Below, in pieces: positions 8,989-11,978 of a stretch of 64,000 bases of DNA (position 1 is its first letter; every line of letters begins with the position of its first letter). The stretch covers positions 1 through 64,000 of the forward strand of contig CALUVR010000012.1 in assembly GCA_944324285.1 (NCBI GenBank), read 5' to 3'. Position numbers and translations under genes: made by a program. This DNA is from Candidatus Gastranaerophilales bacterium. GTDB taxonomy: Bacteria > Cyanobacteriota > Vampirovibrionia > Gastranaerophilales > Gastranaerophilaceae. The notes below the pieces were generated by a model. It saw nothing but the letters and a program-made list of their open reading frames with translations. It ran no database searches and was not told where the DNA came from.

Positions 8989-8999
8989 AATCCCGTGTG

Positions 9000-9032
9000 A
9001 GAAGTGAGTTGTGAATAGTGAATGGTCGTTCA
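9000..9032. repeat. GTGAATAGTGAATGG-type repeat, left copy
   Basis: GAAGTGAGTTGTGAATAGTG then AATGGTCGTTCAA. The inverse follows at 9138-9172, inside the priA reading frame. Confidence 0.55.
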
Positions 9033-9073: not shown

Positions 9074-11824
9074 TTGACAAATTTAACAAATAATAGTTCC
9101 GGTAAAGACGGAAATAACAACTTGTTTTTGTCGAACCATTCACCATTCACCACTCACTTTTCACCAAAGTACGCTCTTGCCTTAGTAAATATTAAGGGAC
9201 TGGGAGTAAAGACTTTCAGTTATTTAATCCCCGATGAGATGAAGGACAAAATTCAAATCGGGCAGGCAATACTTGTGCCGTTTGGGAGACAGGGGCTTAT
9301 TAATGCTTTTTGCGTGGGGTTTTCGGATTATCTGCCTGAGGAGATTAAGGCAAAGAAAATCAATAAGATTTTAGATGAAACCCCGCTTTTTTCAATAGAT
9401 TATTTAAAACTTCTTGAGTGGGTCGGAAATTATTACTGCTGTGATTTGGTAACGGTTTTGAATGCGGCGATACCTTTAAAGCTTATTGAAAAAGTGTCAA
9501 AAACCGAACAGACCGTTGAATTTGTAAGTTTTGAGGGCGCGACAAAACGACAGCTTGAAGTGCTTGAAAAACTTAAATCAAGCGGGAAAATGCCGGTTGT
9601 AATGTTTGAAAAATATGCAAAAACTACGCGTCAGACAATTAAAAAGCTTGAAGCCGCAGGATGTCTGAAACTTTCGACAGAGGAAATTTACAGGAACCCG
9701 CTGGATATTTTGAGAATTGAAAATACTGAGCCTCTTGCAGCGCTTGAAGGCGAGCAATTATCAGCGTACGAGGGGATAAAGAAGAAGATAGATGAATACA
9801 ATAACCCCTCACCCCAGCCCTCTCCCGCAAGGGGAGAGGGAGGAAATGCCCGTCATTTTTATACAGAAAAAACTCTTTGCTATTCAAAAGAATTACGAAA
9901 AAGTATGACAGATGCTGAAAATCTACTGTGGTTTTATCTGAAAAATAAACAGCTTAATGGGTATAAGTTCAGACGTCAGGAGGCTATAGATAACTATATT
10001 GCAGATTTTGTATGTTACGAGAAAAAATTGATTATTGAACTGGACGGCGGTCACCATAATGAAAATAAAAATATAGAAAAAGATAAAGATCGCCAAAATT
10101 ATTTTGAAAAACAAGGCTTTAAAGTATTACGATTTTGGAACAATGATTTATTTCAAGATATTGAGAGTGTTTTGGATGTGATATTAAAAGCGTTAGAACC
10201 CTCTCCCCTTGCGGGAGAGGGTGGGACGGAGTTCCGGGTGAGGGGTCAAAAAGAAACTCCCCCTGTAATGCTTCTCCACGGCGTGACCGCAAGTGGTAAA
10301 ACAGAGGTTTATTTTAAACTTATTGATGACACAATTAAGTCAGGGAAAAATGTTCTTTTTCTTGCACCGGAAATCGCACTTGCGTCGCAATTAACCAAGA
10401 GGCTTGCGAAAAAATTCGGAACAAAAGACGTTGCAATCTGGCACAGCAGTATTTCTGACGGCGAAAGGTATGACGTCTGGCAAAGACTTTACAAAAACGA
10501 TATAAAAATTCTGGCAGGCGCACGGTCTGCTGTTTTCGCGCCGCTAAAAAATATCGGGCTTATCATAATCGACGAGGAGCATGAGGGGGCTTATAAGCAG
10601 ACAAGCCCTGCGCCGAGGTATGATGCAAAAGTCGTTGCGCAAAAACTTGCTGAATTCCATAACTGTCCGCTGCTTTTAGGTTCTGCGACTCCTGATATTT
10701 CTGTTTACTATCGCGCGGTAAATTCGGGAAACCTGTTTGAAATGAAACACCGCTACCGTAACGCCCCGATTGCACCTGTTTCTGTTATTAATATGCAGGA
10801 ACATTCAAAAGCCGCCTATAGAAGTGTTATTTCAAAACCCCTGCAGACCGCGATAAACGAAACTTTAGAGAAAAAACAGCAGGTAATTTTGCTCATAAAT
10901 CGCCGCGGATTTTCAACGTTTACGCAGTGTCAGGCATGCGGGCATGTAATTGAATGCCCTAATTGCGCAATCCCTATGATTTGGCATGCAAAAGACCAGC
11001 GGCTTAAGTGCCACTACTGTAATCAGGTGGAACGCTTCCCCGATGTCTGTCCCGAATGCGGGTCGGATGCCTTGAAAAACAGCGGCACGGGAACGCAGAA
11101 AATTGAGCAGTATGTAAAAGAACTTTATCCTGATTACAATGTCGAACGCGTTGATAGTGACGTTATGGTGCGTAAGGGCGAACACGTAAGGCTTCTGGAG
11201 CGGTTTCAAAAGGGCGATATTGATATTTTAGTCGGCACCCAAATGATTGCAAAAGGGCTTGATAACCCGAATGTTACTCTTGTCGGGGTAATTTCAGCAG
11301 ACGCAAGTTTCAATCTGCCGGATTTTAGAGCCTCCGAGCGAGGATTTCAGCTTCTCACGCAGGTTGCAGGGCGCGCAGGAAGAGGCGAATTCACGGGTCG
11401 CGTGTTTTTCCAAACCTATAACCCTGATTTTTACGCTCTCGAAAGCGCTAAATCCCAGAATTATCCTGAGTTCTACAAAACTGAAATCGCTGCGCGTGAG
11501 GAATTCGACTATCCGCCGTTCAGTCAGATGATAAGGCTTATTATAAGTTCGATGAATAATTTTCGCGCGGAAAAATCCGCTCAGGAAATTGCAATGAGAT
11601 TGTGCCTGATGATTGAAAAATACGGCATCTCTGAACGCCTTGAAGTCCTCGGTCCGACCCCATGTGTAATCGAGAGGATTAACGGATATTACAGGTTCCA
11701 GATTATCATCAAAAACAAGCTTGAAGAAAAAGGGCATAATTTTATCTCAAGCTTTCTCAACAAAATAACCATGCCGAAAGATATTAAACTTGCAATTGAT
11801 GTGGATCCGCTGGATATTTTGTAG
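9074..11824 (+). CDS. priA: Primosomal protein PriA with in-frame DUF559 nuclease insertion
   Basis: Replication-restart 3'-5' helicase, here 916 residues against about 730-800 usual. N-terminal DNA-binding domain about 40-240; Walker A GVTASGKTEVY at about 402; DEEH box in IIDEEHEGAYKQ; eight zinc-binding Cys (CQACG, CPNC, CHYC, CPECG); C-terminal helicase motifs through GTQMIAKGLD and VAGRAGR. Residues about 244-391 are foreign: a repeat-coded peptide (NPSPQPSPARGEG), a DUF559 endonuclease domain, then EPSPLAGEGG. The frame is kept throughout. The TTG start is chosen for AAAGGAG seven bases upstream. Residues about 20-35 (SNHSPFTTHFSP) are also coded by a dispersed repeat. Confidence 0.93.
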   Translation: MTNLTNNSSGKDGNNNLFLSNHSPFTTHFSPKYALALVNIKGLGVKTFSYLIPDEMKDKIQIGQAILVPFGRQGLINAFCVGFSDYLPEEIKAKKINKILDETPLFSIDYLKLLEWVGNYYCCDLVTVLNAAIPLKLIEKVSKTEQTVEFVSFEGATKRQLEVLEKLKSSGKMPVVMFEKYAKTTRQTIKKLEAAGCLKLSTEEIYRNPLDILRIENTEPLAALEGEQLSAYEGIKKKIDEYNNPSPQPSPARGEGGNARHFYTEKTLCYSKELRKSMTDAENLLWFYLKNKQLNGYKFRRQEAIDNYIADFVCYEKKLIIELDGGHHNENKNIEKDKDRQNYFEKQGFKVLRFWNNDLFQDIESVLDVILKALEPSPLAGEGGTEFRVRGQKETPPVMLLHGVTASGKTEVYFKLIDDTIKSGKNVLFLAPEIALASQLTKRLAKKFGTKDVAIWHSSISDGERYDVWQRLYKNDIKILAGARSAVFAPLKNIGLIIIDEEHEGAYKQTSPAPRYDAKVVAQKLAEFHNCPLLLGSATPDISVYYRAVNSGNLFEMKHRYRNAPIAPVSVINMQEHSKAAYRSVISKPLQTAINETLEKKQQVILLINRRGFSTFTQCQACGHVIECPNCAIPMIWHAKDQRLKCHYCNQVERFPDVCPECGSDALKNSGTGTQKIEQYVKELYPDYNVERVDSDVMVRKGEHVRLLERFQKGDIDILVGTQMIAKGLDNPNVTLVGVISADASFNLPDFRASERGFQLLTQVAGRAGRGEFTGRVFFQTYNPDFYALESAKSQNYPEFYKTEIAAREEFDYPPFSQMIRLIISSMNNFRAEKSAQEIAMRLCLMIEKYGISERLEVLGPTPCVIERINGYYRFQIIIKNKLEEKGHNFISSFLNKITMPKDIKLAIDVDPLDIL
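9138..9172. repeat. Dispersed repeat translated into the PriA N-terminus
   Basis: GAACCATTCACCATTCACCA then CTCACTTTTCACC, the inverse of 9000-9032. It lies within the priA frame and codes SNHSPFTTHFSP ahead of the conserved PriA start region (KYALALVNIKGLG). Confidence 0.6.
9804..10246 (+). mobile_element. DUF559 endonuclease cassette bounded by inverted repeats, inside priA
   Basis: About 443 bp. Both ends carry ACCCCTCACCC in inverse orientation, and inside each is the palindrome CCCTCTCCCGCAAGGGGAGAG or its complement. Between them is a complete DUF559 (Vsr/restriction-endonuclease-like) domain: LRKSMTDAENLLWFYLKN, GYKFRRQEAIDNYIADFVC, KLIIELDGGHH and GFKVLRFWNNDLF. The domain has no stop codon of its own and continues into PriA; internal initiation at MTDAEN (9905) is possible. 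Intein splice-junction residues are not apparent, so the protein is probably made as a fusion. Confidence 0.82.
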
Positions 11825-11895: not shown

Positions 11896-11978
11896 TGCCC
11901 CCTCACCCCTATCCCTCTCCCAACGGGAGAGGGAAAAGAGGAGAAGGTAAAGGTCGGTTGGGCATACCTGCCCAACTA
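11896..11978. repeat. CTCTCCC hairpin and GTTGGGCA palindrome
   Basis: CCCTCACCCC..CTCTCCCAACGGGAGAGG, related to the priA cassette ends, followed at 11957-11976 by GTTGGGCATACCTGCCCAAC. The latter 20-mer recurs at 34767, 42261, 57353 (inverse), 60692 (partial) and 61036 (inverse). Confidence 0.65.

Follow-up and report, generated by a model that had tools for sequence, protein, structure and literature searches.

To our knowledge, mobile nucleases are thought to require introns or inteins for a harmless life in conserved genes. EDxHD homing endonucleases have been described (PMC3943268), and DUF559 was placed among the EDxHD nucleases in a passage about Thermosynechococcus inteins (PMC9403480). 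Rickettsia palindromic elements are palindromes that lie in frame in protein genes and are translated (PMC10969869). REPs have been reported within replication and repair genes, including recB, where they occupy about the same site in two Xanthomonas species (PMC3733652). In the Ophiostomatales, a homing endonuclease is fused in frame to mitochondrial rps3 (PMC7902536). Finally, VsrA of Caulobacter is a free-standing DUF559 protein with a link to DNA damage in vivo and a proposed mismatch repair role tied to cytosine methylation (PMC12907096).

The window analysed here, a stretch of 64,000 nucleotides from a Candidatus Gastranaerophilales bacterium, contains a priA gene that carries a DUF559 nuclease cassette. 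The source belongs to gut bacteria with a relationship to cyanobacteria, and its genus is probably Scatousia, since a relative in the same genus bears the name Candidatus Scatousia excrementipullorum. The relevant features are the following.

9074..11824, forward strand: priA open reading frame with the inserted nuclease, 916 aa, recognized by domain profile matches
9209..9475, forward strand: PriA 3'-DNA-binding domain (PF17764), aa 46-134, Pfam match
9804..9814, forward strand: left outer arm ACCCCTCACCC, 11 nt, 100% complementary to 10236-10246
9818..9840, forward strand: left inner hairpin CCCTCTCCCGCAAGGGGAGAGGG, 23 nt, 100% complementary to 10199-10221
9878..10198, forward strand: DUF559 nuclease domain, Pfam match, AlphaFold2 domain model with pLDDT 88
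10199..10221, forward strand: right inner hairpin CCCTCTCCCCTTGCGGGAGAGGG, pairs with 9818-9840
10236..10246, forward strand: right outer arm GGGTGAGGGGT, pairs with 9804-9814
10268..10696, forward strand: PriA helicase lobe 1 (DEAD, PF00270), aa 399-541, Pfam match
11899..11936, forward strand: repeat unit without nuclease immediately downstream of priA; the genome has about 20 such units

NCBIfam and Pfam scans identified the 916-aa frame as PriA (TIGR00595, 604 bits) with the Pfam content PriA_3primeBD, DEAD, Zn_ribbon_PriA, Helicase_C and PriA_C. PriA is present in one copy in this genome, and PriA proper begins near KYALALV (aa 32). The start of priA is flanked by an unrelated 30-nt inverted repeat (90%; arms 8997-9026 and 9135-9164), whose right arm is read as the N-terminal part of the frame as annotated (SNHSPFTTHFSP). 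The initial annotation had proposed a DUF559 nuclease in frame within PriA, and this was borne out by a full DUF559 domain (PF04480, aa 269-375) in the single 916-aa frame, which scored 130.5 bits against a curated Pfam cut-off of 20.6. The domain positions also agree with the suggested separation of the DNA-binding and helicase parts, as the cassette occupies the linker that joins the winged-helix region to helicase lobe 1.

The left and right units are exact inverted copies of each other in outer arm and hairpin alike, and each inner arm is itself a hairpin, which confirms the inverted, hairpin-bearing ends first noted for the 443-bp unit. RNA folding predicted end-to-end pairing of this unit, with a z of -7.8 compared with shuffles. 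The GC content of the nuclease domain is 0.30 versus about 0.72 in the repeat units. The left outer arm and hairpin are translated as NPSPQPSPARGEG and the right hairpin and outer arm as PSPLAGEGGTEFRVRG, with the linker peptide PSPLAGEGG. The cassette keeps the PriA frame as initially claimed, but 443 bp is not divisible by three (443 mod 3 = 2), and small differences beyond the repeat arms bring the reading back into frame. The arms are translated, in keeping with the earlier idea of translatable repeats. They lack stop codons in most frames, largely owing to their base composition, as 17-34% of shuffled arms are stop-free in every frame; freedom from stop codons in all six frames is therefore not supported as a special adaptation. 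An assembly join at the repeats is excluded because four independent assemblies of the genus share the structure (88-98% identical); it also recurs in 15 family genomes.

In 51 relatives, residues E282, D311, E322, D324 and H328 were invariant, and omega (dN/dS) of the nuclease ranged from 0.07 to 0.29. By these sequence measures, the nuclease has intact catalytic residues and evolves under purifying selection. The first in-frame start codon of the insert is M278, inside the nuclease domain; with no earlier in-frame start, the nuclease as annotated would be made solely as part of PriA. Structure prediction, proposed at the outset for the 916-residue protein, gave a poor AlphaFold2 model of the whole PriA (mean pLDDT 49.5, from ten alignment rows only) and a good one of the DUF559 domain alone (pLDDT 88). 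Among solved structures, those nearest to the domain model were 3hrl (Z 16.0), I-Bth0305I (3r3p; Z 11.5 over 94 residues) and Vsr (1cw0; Z 10.3). The modelled domain thus matches Vsr and I-Bth0305I over most of its length and has the fold of a homing endonuclease. A relation to EDxHD homing endonucleases at the sequence level was found through I-Bth0305I, with a profile match of E 6.8e-4 (22.8 bits) and a single-sequence match of E 0.0066.

The locus shares with I-Bth0305I the catalytic fold, a weak but real sequence similarity and the invasion of a single site in a conserved gene. I-Bth0305I, however, is intron-encoded and has an extended DNA-binding region, whereas here a bare domain lies within the host protein and nothing is seen that would splice it; in the Pfam scan, a long tethered DNA-binding region was absent and the DUF559 domain stood alone between the palindromes. 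As in the Rickettsia palindromic elements, a palindromic repeat is translated in frame. Those elements measure about 150 bp and lack a nuclease, whereas the unit described here is 443 bp long, codes for the probable mobility enzyme and is found repeatedly at fixed sites. REP/RAYT systems likewise comprise inverted hairpin pairs around one nuclease gene and dispersed solo copies, some of them in repair genes and at the same site across species. They differ in their HUH tyrosine transposase and GTAG-tagged repeats; here the repeats are CCCCTCACCC...CCCTCTCCC units around a Vsr-like nuclease, and the Pfam scan detected DUF559 only and no HUH tyrosine transposase between them. The rps3 fusions also join a homing enzyme in frame to a protein-coding host gene, but they involve a LAGLIDADG enzyme and an intron-encoded rps3 of fungal mitochondria. 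VsrA shares the Vsr-type DUF559 domain and differs in being free-standing in Caulobacter. In the freely accessible literature, covered largely at the level of titles and abstracts, in-frame DUF559 cassettes in bacterial housekeeping proteins are undescribed, and nothing relevant was found there for the repeat string or for in-frame non-splicing homing genes. Partial precedents exist in the Rickettsia palindromes, the in-gene REPs and the rps3 fusions; provisionally, the combination appears to be undescribed.

An insert of this kind might be removed from the gene product as an intein, a self-splicing intron or a translational bypass element. The cassette is in frame within conserved genes, encodes a homing-type nuclease and has ends that form a strong stem, and a DUF559 gene has appeared in an intein discussion in Thermosynechococcus (PMC9403480). 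Nevertheless, the cassette is open and frame-true throughout, and its linker-like ends are read in varying frames. Pfam and NCBIfam scans of the cassette found no intein Hint splicing domain, and Rfam gave no group I or group II match in the insert at E values up to 1. Intein and intron were rejected on these grounds, judged from the DNA there is no support for splicing of the priA cassette, and removal of the insert by any of the three routes is considered very improbable. With regard to DDE transposons and MITEs, the cassette has terminal inverted repeats and lacks a target-site duplication.

Cassettes in the priA linker were found in 15 of 383 family genomes, spread over six genera. The refuting case named beforehand, an old fusion with unrelated flanking DNA, was not encountered, as all 15 PriA cassettes retain the repeats. 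Within the genus of the window, the cassette is present in four genomes (G000, G004, G008 and G001), the linker is empty in five (SKKIKENPSAQMLLYGV), and scars remain in two. The scar in G010 is a solo hairpin unit, and that in G011 is the right end alone, adjoining a different repeat. The empty PriA linkers of sister genomes comprise 41-45 residues. Nuclease-less remnants at the priA site occur in five genomes; in genus g51, G064 has the cassette ends alone (ATTACCCCT...AGGGGTAAT) and G210 a unit without nuclease, and in genus g7 the linker of G214 has kept the left end. Empty sites in close relatives, which the initial annotation had asked for, were thus available for comparison. The occupied junction of G188 (genus g51) reads AAATAAA, then the cassette from ATTACCCCTCACCC to GGTGAGGGGT, then AAAACA, and the empty junction of G120 (same genus) reads AAATAAA-GCTGAAGGTAAT-AAAACA. 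The two junctions differ by the cassette only, which replaces 12 bp (GCTGAAGGTAAT). A possible target-site duplication had also been raised; none was seen in several occupied and empty priA pairs, including this one. Among the priA cassettes, the left palindrome is read in two frames (NPSPxPSPARGEG and TPHPxPLPQGER), which requires more than one original insertion or a shift of the edge. In many genomes of genus g7 (for example at L203, L194 and L045), the PriA linker contains other repeat-coded peptides (RARGQEGK...LPSCLPAF). The presence of several repeat families in one PriA linker marks it as a hot spot that tolerates insertions.

A PriA tree was built from the proteins of 66 genomes with the linker left out. 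Cassette presence required 13 changes on this tree, compared with a mean of 13.7 for shuffled labels. Synonymous differences were then counted in the cassette versus PriA for the closest occupied pairs: 3/65 versus 134/456 for G000-G004 (p 3e-6), 6/65 versus 160/454 for G000-G008, 3/66 versus 111/458 for G004-G008, 10/64 versus 294/453 for G061-G118 (p 4e-14) and 8/64 versus 247/441 for G070-G263 (p 2e-11). Among the six closest pairs, five showed a synonymous divergence of the cassette far below that of PriA (Fisher p 9e-5 to 4e-14). The pair G156-G188 showed equal divergence (34/65 in the cassette and 217/432 in PriA) and gives no dating signal; it serves as a control, which argues against a generally slow clock at the synonymous sites of the cassette. 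The low values therefore indicate that the cassette entered the same priA site horizontally after the species had split. Pairs of IspE cassettes showed the same synonymous pattern. Third-position identity falls at the cassette edges, and no clear co-conversion tract was found in the priA flanks. The scattered presence and the young inserts in old host genes are the site-specific horizontal spread that is expected of a homing endonuclease. A single old fusion with vertical descent is ruled out by the synonymous divergence together with the scattered presence.

These data also bear on domestication, in which PriA would have gained a nuclease that helps to process stalled forks and is retained for this benefit. 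The intact catalytic residues, an omega below 1 and the helicases among the cassette hosts agree with such a role, and since PriA is single-copy in the genome, the fused PriA must work. Against this stand the presence of the cassette in just 15 of 383 genomes, the near-identical relatives that lack it or carry scars, and the same cassettes in IspE, PrmA, HydE and a peptidase, where the nuclease has no evident use. Domestication is thus judged quite improbable. The description of the nuclease as a permanent domain of PriA had to be abandoned in view of its scattered distribution on the tree, the nuclease-less scars and its recent horizontal entry.

A search for the same cassette type in other genes, suggested from the start, was successful. 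In-frame DUF559 cassettes were found within PrmA, IspE, PcrA/UvrD-like helicases, the MmeI methyltransferase region, a TIGR03960 B12 radical-SAM protein, an M14 peptidase and a DNA methylase. HydE carries one at its C-terminus, in the window's own genome as well. At L102, the cassette splits one Pfam domain of a PcrA/UvrD-like helicase. The HydE-DUF559 fusion of the window's genome (L002, 1489-2937, reverse strand, contig C9) has the same kind of repeats on both sides, and its right repeat extends into the beginning of the cysteine synthase-like gene that follows. A 577-aa IspE frame of G064 (L084, 334-2064) has two DUF559 domains of different lineages, the first before the kinase and the second inside it. 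Among the best 150 family matches listed, 66 lie in frames of at least 250 aa, 84 in frames of at most 200 aa and none between. On the nuclease tree, the sequences cluster by host site across genera, with 12 changes (minimum 10, shuffled mean 36.7), and support was 100/98 for hydE, 95/90 for M14, 100/90 for SF1 with MmeI and a modest 89/41 for priA; grouping by genus was not rejected by an AU test, for which the DUF559 alignment has too few columns (p about 0.5).

Both free-standing and in-gene DUF559 domains are commonly enclosed by inverted repeats, which reached at least 11 nt in 47 of 60 cases (median 16 nt) and in 2 of 300 shuffled flanks. Such enclosure would suit a transposon-like element of RAYT/REP type, whose nuclease acts on the palindromes and excises or inserts repeat units, or the cassette as a whole, at any place; of these insertions, just those that are in frame and lie in tolerant linkers would survive, and solo palindromes would be by-products. 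The significance of the enclosure is reduced by mismatched flank pairs, of which 38 of 300 also share at least 11 nt because the repeats are alike and GC-rich. Palindrome-flanked DUF559 genes in Azospirillum, Deinococcus, Sinorhizobium and Sphingomonas also agree with this alternative. These genes (L232-L236) are free-standing with palindromes of 22-45 nt in the same style, and the Azospirillum unit is nearly identical to that of the window (CACCCCTCACCCCAACCCCTCTCCCGCAAGGGGAGAGGGG). The units without nuclease, about 20 in the window's genome, are mostly intergenic and usually consist of an outer arm and a hairpin. At another locus of this genome (L005, 3-2306, contig C6), a 768-aa open frame includes a nuclease-less repeat and another repeat (PDCFADAHNDVEV), both translated. 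Dispersed solo units are associated with DUF559-bearing genomes (6/8 versus 15/52, p 0.018), which, together with the two repeat reading frames at the priA site, is in line with transposon-like movement. The clustering of nucleases by host site across genera, however, is unexpected under random insertion, and occupied and empty priA alleles show no target-site duplication. A transposon-like element is therefore considered unlikely.

Taken together, the cassette is probably a non-splicing, homing-like selfish DNA element that spreads sideways between related species into the same priA site. This reading is preferred because of the site-specific lineages, the scattered presence, the young inserts in old genes and the scars, and the selfish nuclease cassette of the original proposal, with its inverted palindromes at both ends, gains support from the empty sites and the other host genes. 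The element would consist of one Vsr/EDxHD-type DUF559 nuclease gene flanked by inverted palindromic repeat units. Lodged in a flexible linker, it would give rise to a PriA with an extra nuclease domain on repeat-coded tethers (NPSPQPSPARGEG and PSPLAGEGG). Most likely, the nuclease would cut cassette-less alleles, and break repair would copy the cassette in by homing. Later deletion would leave a nuclease-less scar, and the site could be invaded again. The host gene would survive because the site lies between domains and the repeats translate into linkers rich in Pro, Ser and Gly. Speculatively, the DNA-binding parts of PriA or the palindromes could contribute target specificity. Sister lineages would do likewise in further conserved genes, with every lineage adapted to a site of its own.

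The chances are about even that these elements form a distinct selfish class of non-splicing in-frame homing cassettes, in which a minimal Vsr/EDxHD nuclease between linker-coding palindromes invades conserved and often essential genes (PriA, PrmA, IspE, helicases, MmeI and radical-SAM proteins) at fixed sites and rides as a temporary domain of the host protein; PriA may even carry the nuclease to replication forks. If true, this would be a third way of hiding in essential genes, as a translated extra domain with repeats as linkers. It would also be a direct source of protein domain insertions and provide a likely role for many genes annotated as DUF559, as well as a candidate mobiliser of the GC-rich palindromic repeat seen across phyla. 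This hypothesis can be tested now, since close relatives offer alleles that are occupied, empty or scarred.
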